DNA of 64,000 nt. Source: a virus. A program made the translations under genes and the position numbers. The notes beneath the pieces are model-generated. The model was not told the origin of the DNA. It saw nothing but the letters and a program-made list of their open reading frames with translations, and did no database searches. Shown piece by piece: positions 36,159 through 47,545 of the stretch (position 1 is the stretch's first letter; the number at the start of each line of letters is the position of its first letter). The stretch spans positions 62,001-126,000 of IMG/VR virus record IMGVR_UViG_3300024503_000015. One strand, written 5' to 3'.

Positions 36159-36581
36159 TTAAACTGCAATCAATACTAATACGTCTGCTGACGAATCGTT
36201 ATCTAAATACCACTTGTACTTGTTACCGCTAAAGTCATAAGCAAGGCGCTTAGTTAATTTAGCAATAGCAGTAGTACCAGGAGTTTGACCAGTTGTAGAA
36301 CCTAAAATACGAATTTCACCATTGGCTGCTGGTGTTCCAGAAACTAGTTTACCAACTTTTAAGTTAGTACCTGTAATAGAACTGATGCTTTCTGCTTCAG
36401 TAAATGCATCATCGGATGTTTTTAAAACAACGTATGTGCTCTTGCCACGTTGTTTAACAATTTGATAGTCACTGGCTAATGAACCGCCGAAGTAACCTTG
36501 AACTAAAATACCTGCTTGTGATGTAGTAAATGAACGAGTAACTTTAGTACCGTATACATCTTTCTTTAATGGACGTCCCAT
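36159..36581 (-). CDS. small structural protein downstream of the major capsid gene
   Basis: A 140-residue basic, beta-rich protein: MGRPLKKDVYGTKVTRSFTT, then QAGILVQGYFGGSLASDYQI, VKQRGKSTYVVLKTSD and, at the end, LAYDFSGNKYKWYLDNDSSA. It is rich in small residues with no enzyme motif. Its own late-type promoter lies 80 bases upstream, just past the gp23 terminator, so it can be made in different amounts from the capsid protein. By position it could be a capsid decoration protein or the first piece of the fibre unit. I do not recognise a T4 homologue; gp24 in T4 is much larger. Confidence 0.5.
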   Translation of the reverse strand: MGRPLKKDVYGTKVTRSFTTSQAGILVQGYFGGSLASDYQIVKQRGKSTYVVLKTSDDAFTEAESISSITGTNLKVGKLVSGTPAANGEIRILGSTTGQTPGTTAIAKLTKRLAYDFSGNKYKWYLDNDSSADVLVLIAV

Positions 36582-36661
36582 TTGTTTTCTCCTTATGTTG
36601 ACGTTTTAGGTCTACGCAGAGGGATTCTGCATAAGTTCGCTAATGCGAATATAATTTAGAC

Positions 36662-41396: not shown

Positions 41397-43106
41397 TTAT
41401 GCTGGTGGAGCGGCTGGCGCGGGAGCGGCACCTGGTGCTGGCGCACCGCCTTCTGCTCCTGCTTCAGGTGCCATACCTTCGGGTGCTGGTGTTTCTCCTG
41501 CCATAGCACTAGCATCTGCGGCAATGCCCGTTGGGCTTACACCTGCTGTACGCAATTCTCCTGCGGCATCCATTGCGTTAGACTTGGCCATACCGCTTTC
41601 TTCTTTCCACAGACGTTCGTTTTCTGCTAAGTCTTCGTCTGTCATACCTAAGAAACGTTTTAGTGCAAACCGTTTAGCAATAAATGGCAATGCTACTACC
41701 TGTGCAAAAGTACTGATACGTTGATTGTCTAACTCTGCTTGACGATATGCGGCAAAGTTTTGTGGACTTTGGAAACGAATATCAAACAAACTAAAGTCAA
41801 TGTTTACACCTTTGTTATACAAGAATAATTTAAATTCTGTATCAAATGTACTGATCATTAACGTTTGTAAACGCTCGCAATATTTGTTAAAACGTAGTTC
41901 TTGAATGTATGCTGTACCTACACGTCCATCATTAAATGCCGCTTGACTGTCATCTGCGCCTGTAGGCAAGTAACTGCTAGGAATACGTAGAGCTCGCATT
42001 AACTTGTTAGTAAAATACTTTAAGTCGTCGATTTCGCCCAGGTTAGTACCGCCCGGTAGCGTTTCAACTTTACTTCCACGACCTTCTGCTGTCTGTGGAA
42101 AGAAGTAGTCTTCATTGATAGACAACGGATTGTAAGCACTATCAATAGCACTGCCACCGCCTGTACTACTAGGAATACGTCTTTGATGAATCTCATTTTT
42201 AACTCTTTCAACAAAGCTCATGGCCAAGTGACTAGGCATATTGCCTACGTCAATGTAGAAAATTCTACGCTCTGGAGCACGTTGAATACGATAGATAATA
42301 ATAGCATCTTCCAGTAATTCTTTCTGTTTGTAAACTTTAAAAACAGATTCTAACAGCGAATTACCAAAAGGATAATTGTTGTCTAAGCCTTCACTTAGAC
42401 TAAGATGTACAACGTGTTTAGCATCAATAGCAAATTCATTTTGACTTTTGCTAAAACGTGTTCCTGACTGCTGAGGATATGATCCTGTCATACCGCGAGC
42501 ACCGCTGCCGCCTTGTGTATAAGCGGCACCACCAGGCTGTTGATTTTGTGTATTAGGATTAATCTGTGTTACAACTAAATCCTGTAAATTAATGTTTAAG
42601 TCGCGGATAACGTATTGTTCTGGCTTCTTGCCTTCGCTTTCGTTAACAATAATCTTTACAACTTTACCCGGATCAACGTAATACCATTTTTGTGTTTCTG
42701 GATCGCGTACAAAGAATCCGTCGCCGTATTTGAACAAGTTACGTGCAATACGGAACATACGTGTATCAAGTTTTTGTAACTTAGTCCACTGTTGTAGGTA
42801 TTCCTTTAAAATTTTAATTTCAGAATTTGTAGCACGATTTCTAAATTGTAATGTAAACGGTGTACCGTTTTCTTTATTTTTCTGTGTGCAAAACTCTGCT
42901 AGAATGTCCAATGCGGCATTAACTTCGCTGTCCCAATCCATGGTGTCGTACTGCATATAACGCTCAACACGATTTGGACTACCAGTGTAAACATCTGGAA
43001 GATAGGAACTATAGTTGGATCGTGCAGGACCAGGCTTTCCGCCTGCGCCGGATATCGGGCTAACGTTGCCTGTTGTTACTGGAGAGAAATGTCTTTTCCA
43101 ACTCAT
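41397..43106 (-). CDS. 20: portal vertex protein gp20
   Basis: A 569-residue T4-type portal protein, which forms the dodecameric DNA channel at the head vertex. Recognisable stretches are YMQYDTMDWDSEVNAALDIL near residue 50, KYGDGFFVRDPETQKWYYVD near 130, IIYRIQRAPERRIFYIDVGN near 275, and EIDDLKYFTNKLMRALRIPS near 355, all hallmarks of gp20 and of the marker region used in marine surveys. The last 45 residues are an Ala/Pro/Gly-rich tail. A Gly/Gln-rich insert lies near 185-210 (QNQQPGGAAYTQGGSGARG). T4 gp20 is 524 residues. The gene is preceded by the probable tape measure rather than by gp18/gp19 as in T4. Confidence 0.95.
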   Translation of the reverse strand: MSWKRHFSPVTTGNVSPISGAGGKPGPARSNYSSYLPDVYTGSPNRVERYMQYDTMDWDSEVNAALDILAEFCTQKNKENGTPFTLQFRNRATNSEIKILKEYLQQWTKLQKLDTRMFRIARNLFKYGDGFFVRDPETQKWYYVDPGKVVKIIVNESEGKKPEQYVIRDLNINLQDLVVTQINPNTQNQQPGGAAYTQGGSGARGMTGSYPQQSGTRFSKSQNEFAIDAKHVVHLSLSEGLDNNYPFGNSLLESVFKVYKQKELLEDAIIIYRIQRAPERRIFYIDVGNMPSHLAMSFVERVKNEIHQRRIPSSTGGGSAIDSAYNPLSINEDYFFPQTAEGRGSKVETLPGGTNLGEIDDLKYFTNKLMRALRIPSSYLPTGADDSQAAFNDGRVGTAYIQELRFNKYCERLQTLMISTFDTEFKLFLYNKGVNIDFSLFDIRFQSPQNFAAYRQAELDNQRISTFAQVVALPFIAKRFALKRFLGMTDEDLAENERLWKEESGMAKSNAMDAAGELRTAGVSPTGIAADASAMAGETPAPEGMAPEAGAEGGAPAPGAAPAPAAPPA

Positions 43107-43118
43107 TATTAATTCCTA

Positions 43119-45488
43119 TTATGCACTATTATTTGAAGTTTGTCTAGTGTATTTGGCTGTCTTGCTCAAATAATCCACAGCGTCTGATTGATGTGAGACT
43201 AATTGACTCATATTCATATTTAACTGATTTAACAGGTCTACCATCTCTTTGCTGGACGCATCGGATACTTTTACGTTTCCAGGTGCTCCTTCTTTTTGCT
43301 CAGACTTCATAGAGCTCTTGATGGTTTCGCTTAATTTATTAATGTTATTATTCAGTTGATCTAAATTAGTGTTATTCAAATCTTTAAATGCACTAGTTGT
43401 TGTAGTAATTTCTTCTCTAAGATTTTTTAATTTAATAACACCTGCATCGATACTTGAACCCACTGCCTCTGGGAACATTAATTTTGAATAATCTACATCC
43501 TTTAATGCCGTTTTAAGTGCATTAACTTCTTGATTTAACTTTGCTACAGGTTCGGCAGCATTTGTCTCTGGAGGTTTTGGTGCATTTGCTTTTGGTATTT
43601 CTGCACCAGGTACTGTATTTTTAGTATTTTCCGTTTGTGCATTAGCGGCCGCATTTGTTTTTGTCTTTAAAAAGTCTGGAGTTAGAAAATCAACAACTTC
43701 ATCTTTATAAATGATTAATCCTGCTGTTGTTGCTATTGCCCAGGCCCATGGATTCTTTATAGTGGAAACAATTTTTTCTAGTTTTCCGGCTTTTGCAACA
43801 TCTTCTGCGGCTTCTGCGGCTGCTCCTGGCTTAACTGGTTCTCCTTTAGGAGTTTTAGGTTCACCACCTTTAGGTTCACCGCCACCTTTTTTCATTTCTT
43901 CATATTTTTTATAATCCATGCCAGCGGCTTTTGCACCAGCATAACCTATTGCAGTACCTACACCAGCCTTAATAAGAGCATCTGCAATCTCTTTACCTAG
44001 TGCGGCTCCAAACAATACTGGAATTCTTGCGGCTGGATCTAACTTAGCAAATTTTTCAGCGGCTGCTTCTGCACCACTTGCCGCCGATTTTAATCCAGTT
44101 GCGGTTAAATCTAGTACGCCACTTTCAATAAATGACTTCTTAAATGAATTTTGTACATTAGTTAATGTCTGATCTAAACCTGCTACTGCTCTTGTTGGGT
44201 CTGTCTTAGATGCAGCCAGACGTTTTTCTTGTTCTTCCTTGGCCATTGCGGCTGCTTTTTGCGAGTCGCCCATGCCTTGTAATACTGCTTTACCTAACAT
44301 TGGAGTCATTTGACCCATAGTTGCCATTGCGGCGGCTGTTCTTCTTTCGCCTTCGCTGATATTTTCGCTGGCTTTGGCGGCTTTACTAAATCCAGCGTTC
44401 ATATCGTCGACAGCAGACTTAGATCCGTTAAAAATTTCTCGGCCCATTTTACTAGCATCAACGCCTGCACTTTGCATTGTCAATGCAAATTGTCTTGCTT
44501 CAGCAGTTACAGCAACACCACCGCCAGCAATAATATCTTTAAAGCCTGCGGCCATTTTACCAGTTGGATCTAGTTGTTCTAACTGTTTAATTTTAGCATT
44601 AACTGCCGCCTGTTGGTCTGCATCTAATTTGCCTAATGCTAATTTCATTCTAGCATCACGTTGAGATGATTTATTGGCTTCATCTATCTGTTGTCTAGAT
44701 AATCCTGTTGCCTTTGATAGTCTGTCTAGTTCTTCGTTATATTTTTCTTGACCTGCAACAATTTCATCAGTGCTCATCTTTGACAAGCGACCGTTGCGTT
44801 GTTGTTGTTCCATGTAACTAGCATTATATGTTGCTAGTTCATCCATACTAAATCCAAGCGCGGCAAATTTTTGACCGCTCTGTGCCATAAACTTGCCTTG
44901 TGTTTCAGCAAACTTAGTAGCACCAGCAGTGGCAGATCCAAACGCCATAGCCAGCGATTGGCTGTTTTCTTTTACAGTTTTTCCAAAAATTTCTAAAGGA
45001 AGTCTTGCTTCACCTGCTGATAGTTGTGCTTGTAACAATGAATCACCTAAGTCAATACCAGATCCACTTAGTGTTCTAAAAATTTGTATTTGATCTTCTA
45101 ATGTTCCGCCAAATTGCTGAACTACATCGCTAACGCCCTTGATGTTTGCGCCGGGCATTTGTGCCAGTACACCAGAAAAATCTTTAATTGTAGGAGTAGT
45201 ATTTGAAAATGTTTTAGCAAATGAGTCTGCACCAAGAGATACAGCATCTCCTGCTAGTTTCATTCGTGCCTTATATTCTTTTTCAGTTTCAGCACCTTTT
45301 CGCATTTGCTCAGCCCGAGCATCATTGTCTCCTGCGCCACCGCCACCGCCGGGCGTGGCACCAGGTTTTCCGCCTGCAGGTATTCCGCTTTTATTAATTG
45401 CCGCAAGTATCTGTCTAAGAGTCGAGTCTTCGGCAGCGTTTTCTACAATAACTGTTCCTACTCCAGGAACTATGGCTTTTACTGACAT
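43119..45488 (-). CDS. probable tail tape-measure protein (gp29-like)
   Basis: A 789-residue, mostly helical protein. It starts with a short beta domain (MSVKAIVPGVGTVIVENAAE), a Gly/Pro-rich linker (GGKPGATPGGGGGAGD) and long helices (KFMAQSGQKFAALGFSMDEL, EYNEELDRLSKATGLSRQQI). Two apolar stretches follow near residues 490-525 (IPVLFGAALGKEIADALIKA) and 585-600 (PWAWAIATTAGLIIYKD), as in tape measures that enter membranes. The C-terminal region has coiled coils (LNQEVNALKTALKDVDYSKL). Length, helicity, apolar segments and placement beside the gp26-family gene support the call; sequence similarity to T4 gp29 is not recognised by eye. Confidence 0.68.
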   Translation of the reverse strand: MSVKAIVPGVGTVIVENAAEDSTLRQILAAINKSGIPAGGKPGATPGGGGGAGDNDARAEQMRKGAETEKEYKARMKLAGDAVSLGADSFAKTFSNTTPTIKDFSGVLAQMPGANIKGVSDVVQQFGGTLEDQIQIFRTLSGSGIDLGDSLLQAQLSAGEARLPLEIFGKTVKENSQSLAMAFGSATAGATKFAETQGKFMAQSGQKFAALGFSMDELATYNASYMEQQQRNGRLSKMSTDEIVAGQEKYNEELDRLSKATGLSRQQIDEANKSSQRDARMKLALGKLDADQQAAVNAKIKQLEQLDPTGKMAAGFKDIIAGGGVAVTAEARQFALTMQSAGVDASKMGREIFNGSKSAVDDMNAGFSKAAKASENISEGERRTAAAMATMGQMTPMLGKAVLQGMGDSQKAAAMAKEEQEKRLAASKTDPTRAVAGLDQTLTNVQNSFKKSFIESGVLDLTATGLKSAASGAEAAAEKFAKLDPAARIPVLFGAALGKEIADALIKAGVGTAIGYAGAKAAGMDYKKYEEMKKGGGEPKGGEPKTPKGEPVKPGAAAEAAEDVAKAGKLEKIVSTIKNPWAWAIATTAGLIIYKDEVVDFLTPDFLKTKTNAAANAQTENTKNTVPGAEIPKANAPKPPETNAAEPVAKLNQEVNALKTALKDVDYSKLMFPEAVGSSIDAGVIKLKNLREEITTTTSAFKDLNNTNLDQLNNNINKLSETIKSSMKSEQKEGAPGNVKVSDASSKEMVDLLNQLNMNMSQLVSHQSDAVDYLSKTAKYTRQTSNNSA

Positions 45489-45561: not shown

Positions 45562-46428
45562 ATGGAAAATCAAGTAGCAGTACCGCAAAACCCGTTGAAG
45601 AAGTACTTTAGACAACCGAAGCTCTATGTTCGTTTGCCTAGTTCTGGTAATTTTTATCCACCAGGCACGTTAGAACCTACACAAAATATGGAGTTTCCAG
45701 TTTATGCTATGACTGCTAGAGATGAAATTTCTATTAAAACACCAGACGCATTGTTAAATGGTCAAAGTACTGTTGATGTTATTCAAAGTTGTATGCCTAA
45801 TATTAAAAATGCCTGGGCAATTCCTAGTATTGATATTGATGCTATATTAATTGCTATTCGTATTGCAACATATGGCGAACAAATTGATGTAGATATTGCT
45901 ATTCCAAACATATCAGAAACAAAAACGTATACTACTGACCTACGATTAGCGTTAGATAAACTGTTAGATGCTACATTTGATCCAGAAGTTCGAATTAATG
46001 ATGAATTAACTGCATTTTTACGTCCATTATCCTATGAAGAATTTACTAAAAGTTCTTTAAAAAGTTTAGAAGAACAACGAATTTTTACTATTGTTAACAG
46101 TCAAGAACTAACAGAAGAACAAAAGATTGCTCAATTTAATAAGAGTTTTAAAGCATTAACTGAAATTACCATGAGATCAGTGGCCAATGGATTAGTCAAA
46201 GTTGTTACGCCTGAAGGCGAAGTAAGTGATCCAGCATTTATTAAAGAGTTTATCGATAATGCTGACAAAGAATTTTATACTAAAATCATCGATCACTTGG
46301 AAAAACAACGCATTAAGTTTCAAATGCCGTCGTTTAAAATTCAAACTACAGCAGAAGAGCAAGCTCAAGGTGCTCCTGCTGAATTTGAAACTCCTATAGG
46401 ACTAGACGCTTCAAATTTTTTCGCGTAA
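45562..46428 (+). CDS. 26: gp26-family baseplate hub/tail-assembly protein (zero-frame product)
   Basis: A 288-residue member of the T4 baseplate gp26 family. The N-terminal region has LYVRLPSSGNFYPPG, then VYAMTARDEISIKTPDALL, then DAILIAIRIATYGEQIDVDI, the standard order of this family, in which the middle lies before a large helical C-terminal half (SQELTEEQKIAQFNKSFKAL). Related proteins in many contractile phages act as tail-assembly chaperones. The reading frame ends LDASNFFA just after AAATTTT, where the -1 frame continues into a second conserved-looking segment. It is alone on the plus strand here, with its own late promoter, and diverges from the tape measure. In T4 gp26 is a 208-residue hub component. 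Confidence 0.85.
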   Translation: MENQVAVPQNPLKKYFRQPKLYVRLPSSGNFYPPGTLEPTQNMEFPVYAMTARDEISIKTPDALLNGQSTVDVIQSCMPNIKNAWAIPSIDIDAILIAIRIATYGEQIDVDIAIPNISETKTYTTDLRLALDKLLDATFDPEVRINDELTAFLRPLSYEEFTKSSLKSLEEQRIFTIVNSQELTEEQKIAQFNKSFKALTEITMRSVANGLVKVVTPEGEVSDPAFIKEFIDNADKEFYTKIIDHLEKQRIKFQMPSFKIQTTAEEQAQGAPAEFETPIGLDASNFFA

Positions 46429-46652
46429 AGCTCTTCAGCCTAACACTCGAAGACGCACTAAGAGTAGTTGAGGGGCTAGATAAAGAAGCAAAGTCCATAA
46501 GAACCGAATTGTTTAAATTGTGCTGGTATATGAGAGGTAGCATCACCATAGATGACGCATTTGCATTATCCTATGAAGATCGTGAAATCATATCGAATAT
46601 TATCAAAGAGAATTTAGAAACTACTAAGAAATCAGGATTACCCTTTTTCTAA
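45562..46652 (+). CDS. gp26-family frameshifted product (-1 at 46413-46419), 363 residues predicted
   Basis: At 46413-46419 the frame reads A AAT TTT, a canonical -1 slippery heptamer, with the zero-frame stop seven bases later. After a -1 slip the codons continue as FRVKLFSLTLEDALRVVEGL, IRTELFKLCWYMRGSITIDD, AFALSYEDREIISNIIKENL and KKSGLPFF, then stop at 46650-46652. This tail (77 codons) has amphipathic helices and no ATG until its middle, so it is unlikely to start alone. The layout copies the G/GT tail-assembly chaperone scheme of lambda and many other tailed phages. A single-base sequencing undercall in the T6 run would give the same appearance and must be excluded. I believe the tail corresponds to the small gp51-like protein of related phages, but this is a memory-based guess. 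Confidence 0.65.
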
Positions 46653-46745: not shown

Positions 46746-47067
46746 TAGCATTATCCAGATTGTTCAGTCACACTTCGCCCGCACAGGGCAAAGTTAAAAA
46801 CATTATCCGAGTTGCACAATGTCACACAGCGTTAGAGCATTACAGTGGCGGTTGTCCGGTACCACGAGCTCCGTCTTATCACAACGGCGGTAAACAAATA
46901 TACGCTATCATACTTGCTTACGTGAGGTTTTTCTCCTCTCCTTGAGCCTTTTCTTCTTAAAACAGCAAAACCGCGGCAATTTGCGATCCTCGTCCTGTTA
47001 AGGATAGTTGCTGAGTACTCTTAACGGCAAGAGAATTCCGTCCCTGCGACCCGAGGTCCAGGTATAG

Positions 47068-47090
47068 AGCGCACGAATTTAGCCTGCGCT
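47068..47090 (-). other. hairpin AGCGCA/TGCGCT
   Basis: Six perfect base pairs with an 11-base loop, six bases past the stop of the GIY-YIG-like gene. It could protect or end that transcript, but no T-run follows. Confidence 0.45.
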
Positions 47091-47095
47091 AGCCA

Positions 47096-47545
47096 TTAAC
47101 CGTTTGATTTTGCCTGTGCTTGTTCTAATAAACGCTGTCTTAGTATATTTGATCCGCCTACTCTAACATTAATAATACCGTTATAGTAGTCGTCAGTTTC
47201 TAAAACCCTACGTTCGAACTGCTCTCTTGCCTCTAGATAAGACATTTCTGCCTTGGATTTGCAAAAATAAAGTATTTCTCTTGTGAATTTTTCTGGACCT
47301 AGTGCGTGGACGTCTGCTTGTAATCTCTCAGATGAGCCCCAATATTCGCGCCAATCGCTTTCTACTGTGCTACGTCTTTTGAGTTTTTTGCCTTTGAGTG
47401 GTGGTTTTGTACGCTTAAACTGTGCTAGTTTTTTGCCTATATATTTCTGTCCAGATTGGTTGTTAGTGATGAGATAAACAAAGCCTATAACGCCTTCGGG
47501 TATTTCTTCAACTAATACATTTTGATAGTGCCACGACATGCACAT
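47096..47545 (-). CDS. GIY-YIG-type nuclease-like protein
   Basis: A 149-residue protein. GFVYLITNNQSGQKYIGKK near residues 21-39 has the spacing and residues of the GIY-YIG motif (here VYL...YIG). SDWREYWGSSERLQADVHAL and FTREILYFCKSKAEMSYLEA follow, the order seen in Seg-like GIY-YIG proteins of T4-like phages. The catalytic Arg and Glu are plausibly in REILYF and SYLEAREQFE. It may act as a free-standing homing endonuclease or have been tamed. ATGs at 47545 and 47539 are both possible; MSWHYQN from the second resembles relatives. It is the last gene of the gp55-47-46 unit. Confidence 0.7.
   Translation of the reverse strand: MCMSWHYQNVLVEEIPEGVIGFVYLITNNQSGQKYIGKKLAQFKRTKPPLKGKKLKRRSTVESDWREYWGSSERLQADVHALGPEKFTREILYFCKSKAEMSYLEAREQFERRVLETDDYYNGIINVRVGGSNILRQRLLEQAQAKSNG

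Follow-up and report, generated by a model that had tools for sequence, protein, structure and literature searches.

A gp26-family gene of a T4-like jumbo phage probably extended by programmed −1 frameshifting at a conserved T_TTT_TTC heptamer

Why should a gene of the gp26 family end at a stop codon when the frame one base back stays open and conserved for dozens of codons beyond it? The question is raised by a locus in a 64,000-nucleotide stretch of viral DNA (hereafter, the window), which comprises bases 62001-126000 of a virus record of 270,181 bases, probably belonging to a jumbo T4-like myovirus. An ORF on the plus strand (45562-46428, 288 aa) had been described in this DNA as ending in ...LDASNFFA-TAA, and the sequence confirms it, with the stop codon TAA at 46426-46428, while the −1 frame stays open between 46389 and its stop at 46650-46652. 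Judging from sequence comparison, we consider it very probable that both frames together encode a tail assembly chaperone pair like lambda G/GT, made by programmed −1 ribosomal frameshifting. The frameshifts of lambda G/GT and of other tail assembly chaperones were reportedly described by Levin in 1993 and Xu in 2004; in these systems, a short chaperone is lengthened by a −1 frameshift near the 3′ end of its gene, as would be the case here, where overlapping ORFs predict a short form and a long form with a −1 extension. Lambda slips on G_GGA_AAG, and its tape measure gene follows within one operon.

The zero-frame product, which we propose to be the short chaperone (TAC-N), belongs to a known family. 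It matches the Pfam family PF12322, T4_baseplate (gp26/gp51), with 33.5 bits (gathering cut-off 24.5), as well as the baseplate hub family phrog_150 of PHROGs. Additionally, when its AlphaFold2 model (mean pLDDT 83.6) was compared with predicted viral structures, T4-like baseplate hub assembly proteins were among the matches (best E 2e-21). Against the PDB, Foldseek returned nothing for the model at E ≤ 0.001, and the gp26 profile had no match to PDB sequences at E ≤ 1. The alignment with the HK97 tail assembly chaperone 2ob9 (Z 5.6, rmsd 4.8, 101 residues, target length 107) was not above those of unrelated entries, and no significant sequence similarity to lambda-type chaperones emerged.

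The junctions between the two frames were collected in two scans of IMG/VR, one with each half of the gene, which retained the best 80 of 126 loci and the best 80 of at least 569 (159 loci, one of them shared) and gave, together with the window, 119 distinct family junctions. A third scan, with the protein of cyanophage Sf-FS3 (best 80 of at least 591 loci), produced 57 distinct junctions when Sf-FS3 itself was included; these are referred to below as cyanophage-type. As only the best 80 loci were kept per scan, the samples represent the closest relatives rather than all of them and, because sequences within one family are related, junction counts are not counts of independent events. Two family junctions, L057 (upstream stop) and L136 (an N), lay outside the scripted counts and were added by direct reading. 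The three loci found with the Munch protein and L129, whose contig begins inside gp26 and whose slip site is visible, were left out of the counts. Finally, 20 annotated phage records were picked from the match lists, not at random, and their junctions were read.

What the junctions share is the heptamer T_TTT_TTC, located at 46416-46422 in the window, where the T run (46416-46421) has six T. In X_XXY_YYZ register and followed by G, it was found in 119/119 distinct family junctions (117 of them scripted) and in 57/57 of the cyanophage type. At other Phe-Phe pairs of the same ORFs, the form nnT TTT TTC is used in 2/37 cases in the window family and 0/57 in the cyanophage type, the expectations from codon usage being about 10% and 18%, respectively. 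The zero-frame stop follows the heptamer at 3 nt in 100/117 family junctions, as in the window, at 12 nt in 16 and at 18 nt in one.

The extension that begins at this site comprises 78 codons in the window, slip codons included (46416-46652), and has the same length in 115/117 family junctions, with one of 79 codons and one ended by the contig end. The arrangement is not due to chance, as the T6-C-G motif is present in 117/117 scanned junctions and the length of the extension is nearly constant. Its translation is predicted to be all-helical (pLDDT 88) and opens with FFR, ahead of any start codon and invariant in 21 aligned sequences, in agreement with the preliminary description of this frame as a conserved-looking helical domain. 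When the window type is compared with nine relatives, change within the −1 frame is greatest at third codon positions, including those of codons ahead of any start; in the more distant of the nine, the changed codons ahead of any start are mostly non-synonymous. In 8/117 family and 2/57 cyanophage-type junctions, a −1 stop lies immediately 5′ of the slip codons and, therefore, these extensions have no entry from upstream. Searches of Pfam and PHROGs with the window −1 domain gave nothing useful, and the only isolate records found by tblastn were three, Phosso and two Atu_ph07 entries. In public annotations, the extension is a separate hypothetical protein in Phosso (L001 3010-3240), begins in the middle of the domain in Atu_ph07 (L002 3115-3237) and is unannotated in PA5oct and RaK2. 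Read as the C-terminal region of the long form (TAC-NC), as we propose, it would complete a tail chaperone whose second half has been split off, started mid-domain or left unannotated in public records.

The cyanophages offer a second version of this junction. Their gp26 and “baseplate hub assembly catalyst” gp51 (phrog_150 and phrog_634) are joined by T_TTT_TTC_G and a −1 extension, as in the window, although the extension is shorter (63-68 codons from the slip in 56/57, with one ended early). In these phages, GGAGG precedes the heptamer by exactly 10 nt in 48/57 junctions, while the remaining ones have GAGG at that place (five), AGGA 8 nt before the heptamer (three) or neither (one); the rest of these genes (37,620 nt) contains GGAGG 7 times. 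Shine-Dalgarno (SD)-like sequences about 10 nt upstream are known to stimulate −1 frameshifting, as in dnaX. By contrast, an SD-like element is absent from 111/117 junctions of the window family, where the downstream fold is stronger, and cyanophage-type junctions have a start codon soon past the stop. Helices of at least 8 bp are also found in 46/57 cyanophage-type junctions, against 13% of 513 control positions.

The start codons are relevant to the alternative that survives best, which we nonetheless regard as highly improbable, namely, that a small gene of its own lies downstream and is reached by independent initiation or by stop-start re-initiation. The annotations of Phosso, Atu_ph07 and cyanophage Sf-FS3 treat it in this way. 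In some relatives there is an ATGA, a TAATG or a TTG or ATG close by, and the first start is 3 or 6 codons past the slip in 51/117 family junctions and 3 or 5 codons past it in 57/57 of the cyanophage type. One phage, Cygsa01, has TAATG and no slip site. However, the heptamer is invariant even in those junctions that have a nearby start, and the cyanophage GGAGG, being 10 nt before the slip and, thus, about 25 nt before the ATG, is too far away for ordinary initiation. In 38/117 family junctions there is no ATG, GTG or TTG for at least 20 codons past the slip. The window is one example, as 31 codons precede its first start, a TTG at 46509, and the first ATG, at 46530, falls within a conserved WYMRG motif; the earlier observation that this frame lacks an ATG until its middle was thus correct.

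A smaller probability still is given to slippage on A_AAT_TTT (46413-46419), the heptamer that the preliminary description had put forward. It is indeed present there in the proposed register, and it occurs in 57/117 distinct family junctions. It is missing from the other 60, where the codon that precedes T_TTT_TTC is different or an AAT has no A before it, whereas T_TTT_TTC is present in all 117. This codon is AAT in 66 junctions, ACT in 20, AGT in 16, GAT in 12, CAT in 2 and CGT in 1, and its final T is the part kept in 117/117. As T_TTT_TTC is invariant and the preceding codon is variable, the conserved slip site is the one at 46416-46422, one codon 3′ of A_AAT_TTT, and the latter was rejected for that role. 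By reading, slippage at either position would yield the same ...SNFFRVK... peptide.

Frameshifting at T_TTT_TTC would be expected to have a stimulator at a suitable spacing and, at the family level, this is found as a downstream helix or as the cyanophage GGAGG. In the window, 46429-46439 pairs with 46467-46477 in an 11-bp hairpin that begins 6 nt past the heptamer. Taken alone, this hairpin has a z of −1.40, and 19/200 shuffles fold equally well. For the 80 nt past the heptamer, mean z values against shuffles are −2.74 in the window family (66/117 below −2) and −1.22 in the cyanophage type (6/57 below −2). A helix of at least 10 bp whose 5′ arm starts 3-8 nt past the heptamer is present in 80/117 family junctions, compared with 1.6% of 1276 control positions in gp26 and 3.0% of 232 in the extension; after synonymous-codon shuffling, a mean of 7/117 was obtained, with a maximum of 11 in 20 rounds. 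No uninterrupted helix of at least 8 bp was found in 25/117 junctions.

The 92 junctions with a helix of at least 8 bp were divided into far, mid and near subsets (46, 29 and 17, respectively). The helix 3′ ends cluster at about 36, 54 and 73-76 nt. The alignments contained 46 far, 27 mid (without L043 and L048, and with the window in place of the identical L003) and 16 near sequences (without L037). Paired-cell percentages are biased in these subsets because their members were chosen for having a helix. Cells with compensatory changes numbered 42 in the far set and 16 in the mid set, against 20.6 and 6.5 in shuffles, and both values were above all 500 shuffles; compensatory change is, thus, supported in two of the three subsets, the exception being the near set, where the number of such cells is not clearly above shuffles (34/500). 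Other measures did not exceed shuffles, namely, the count of doubly changed pairs for the far and mid sets (reached by 193 and 149 of 500) and, for the far set, how many pair types occur. Among the nearest relatives of the window, co-variation is not clearly above shuffles either (62/500 reach the score).

A shorter stem, GCGT/ACGC with CTTC/GAAG, had been suggested earlier as the stimulator. It exists in the window, with 8/8 pairs, yet it is not the minimum-energy structure. Among 13 near sequences (window included), the 11-bp stem is complete in seven and keeps 5-8 of its 11 pairs in six, while the shorter stem keeps 7-8 of its 8 pairs in eight and 3-6 in five. For instance, in L093-L097 the 11-bp stem fails (5-7 of 11 pairs) and the shorter one is kept (7-8 of 8). 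Taken together, the family favours a hairpin longer than the stem first suggested, while the 12 nearest relatives of the window keep both about equally well. The hairpin formed by 46429-46439 and 46467-46477 is likely to be the stimulator, with weaker support for the window's own stem than for hairpins family-wide; the shorter stem is a possible alternative.

The same features bear on transcriptional slippage at the T6 run, which would produce mRNAs of shifted length and to which we assign a very slight probability. Runs of six or seven T are conserved in 16 of the 20 phage records. Nevertheless, slippage by RNA polymerase requires neither the X_XXY_YYZ register, nor a helix spaced for the ribosome, nor an SD-like element, all of which are kept, and six T is shorter than the runs known to slip efficiently in transcription. 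As for an indel of sequencing or assembly, or a broken gene, the homopolymer does sit at the junction, yet this is next to impossible, as the arrangement recurs in 119 distinct junctions, in many contigs and in isolate genomes, and the exact 55-nt junction of the window is found in 9 further IMG/VR contigs (16 loci: L003-L010, L015 and L083-L089).

Programmed −1 frameshifting of the gp26-family gene, as first suggested for this locus, is supported by the invariant T_TTT_TTC, the fixed length of the extension and the helix enrichment, and explains the data far better than the alternatives. In such a mechanism, most ribosomes would terminate at 46426, giving the 288-aa TAC-N, and a fraction of them would pause at T_TTT_TTC, aided by the hairpin that starts 6 nt downstream. 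The two Phe-tRNAs would then shift back by one base to pair with TTT TTT, and translation would go on in the −1 frame through the conserved helical domain to 46652, producing the longer TAC-NC. If lambda and T4 gp26/gp51 are a guide, both forms together may chaperone the tape measure protein during the assembly of the tail and the baseplate hub. The slippage itself and its rate, the ratio of the two products and their binding to the tape measure are inferred.

The likely distribution of this device can be judged from the 20 phage records, 16 of which have a run of six or seven T in the corresponding register. T_TTT_TTC is found in Phosso, Atu_ph07, PA5oct, Hallingskeid, Vibrio 2.275.O, RaK2, PBECO4, BF, XaC1, Munch, cyanophage Sf-FS3, phiAS5 and IC12, while XacN1 and RAS14 have T_TTT_TTT and RL38J1 has T_TTT_TTG. 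The remaining four are T4, Stupor and Aes508, with a separate gp51, and Cygsa01, a Pseudomonas phage in which TAATG is found instead of the T6 slip site (L176 3309-3482); a switch from frameshifting to stop-start coupling is possible in the latter. T4 gp26 ends without a T6 run. Both T4 gp26 and gp51 match PF12322 (9e-64 and 4e-52), the family of the window zero frame, and gp51 has an added C-terminal part, so that in T4 the short form and the long form come from separate genes. These are paralogous and divergently transcribed, the long one being fused in frame, whereas the window has one gene and a −1 frameshift. The C-terminal part of T4 gp51 and the cyanophage −1 ORF both match phrog_634 (1e-23 and 1e-26), and the −1 ORF is matched to gp51 by hhalign (92%, E 6e-7). 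The window-type extension gave no significant hhalign match to either T4 gp51 (probability 1.4%, E 0.037) or the cyanophage-type extension (2.4%, E 0.02) and, consequently, its tie to them is based on its location and on a common slip site. One slip site is found across jumbo T4-like phages, cyanophages and Rhizobium phages, with T4 having two genes instead.

Frameshifts of this kind are already known, as passages of the papers on PRFect (PMC10885494) and Adele (PMC12846349) cite Vladimirov et al. 2022 for tail chaperones of T4-like phages encoded by one short gene and one long, fused gene, and also for slip signals of poly-T type in these phages. The Adele passages give GTTTTT as the tail chaperone frameshift site of Adele and the Vandenendeviridae, and the paper on the Sf14 structure (PMC11821841) uses the term “tape measure chaperone”. 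A literature search on ribosomal frameshifting and the baseplate hub in myoviruses or jumbo phages found no papers. Relative to these citing passages, rather than to the 2022 paper itself, the present analysis would add the locus itself, the spread among jumbo phages and both types of stimulator.

The stimulators form a natural set of exchangeable elements around one invariant slip site. It may be that, in T4-like phages, the slip site U_UUU_UUC was frozen while its stimulator was swapped repeatedly (the jumbo phage hairpin, the cyanophage GGAGG 10 nt upstream and, in T4, substitution of the entire device through duplication and fusion of the gene), a reading for which we find the arguments evenly balanced. 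As part of it, the 5′ arm of the jumbo phage hairpin would have been fixed, and the 3′ arm would have moved between about 36, 54 and 73-76 nt. If true, it would amount to a natural experiment on how the ratio between chaperone forms is kept.

The surroundings of the gene differ in part from those in lambda. The gp26-family gene had been said to lie beside a probable tape measure gene, as in lambda G/GT. The adjacency holds for a 789-aa ORF (43119-45488), whereas a same-strand arrangement does not, as this neighbour is on the minus strand and divergent instead of following on the same strand. All Pfam matches of this ORF are below cut-off, and its two weak PHROGs matches are both to families of unknown function. 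It is a putative tape measure or virion structural protein by its position, as a structural protein occupies the corresponding divergent place in RaK2 and PA5oct, the one in RaK2 being annotated as similar to a tape measure protein. A divergent structural gene adjoins gp26 in several jumbo phages (e.g., PA5oct, RaK2 and PBECO4), while Atu_ph07 has different gp26 neighbours and the neighbours in Vibrio 2.275.O are on the same strand. Beyond the 789-aa ORF, a portal protein (phrog_213) is encoded at 41397-43106, and SbcC/SbcD-like genes and a late sigma factor are found farther along the window.

Three further observations concern other parts of the window. About 300 nt past the stop of the extension, on the minus strand (46960-47094), there is a match to the Rfam Polynucleobacter-1 sRNA (RF01718, 119 bits). 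The same RNA was found downstream on the minus strand in 11/18 loci scanned (11/16 of the IMG/VR relatives), and not in the scanned stretches of Phosso and Atu_ph07; jumbo T4-like phages are thereby linked with an RNA family that is listed as “sRNA”. Next to it, the ORF at 47096-47545 (minus strand) matches phrog_447, “NAD synthetase”, as well as three homing-endonuclease families; the “NAD synthetase” label seems open to doubt. Finally, the Rfam freshwater-2 cis-regulatory RNA (RF02980) is matched at 36579-36650 on the minus strand, with 55.2 bits against 49.9.
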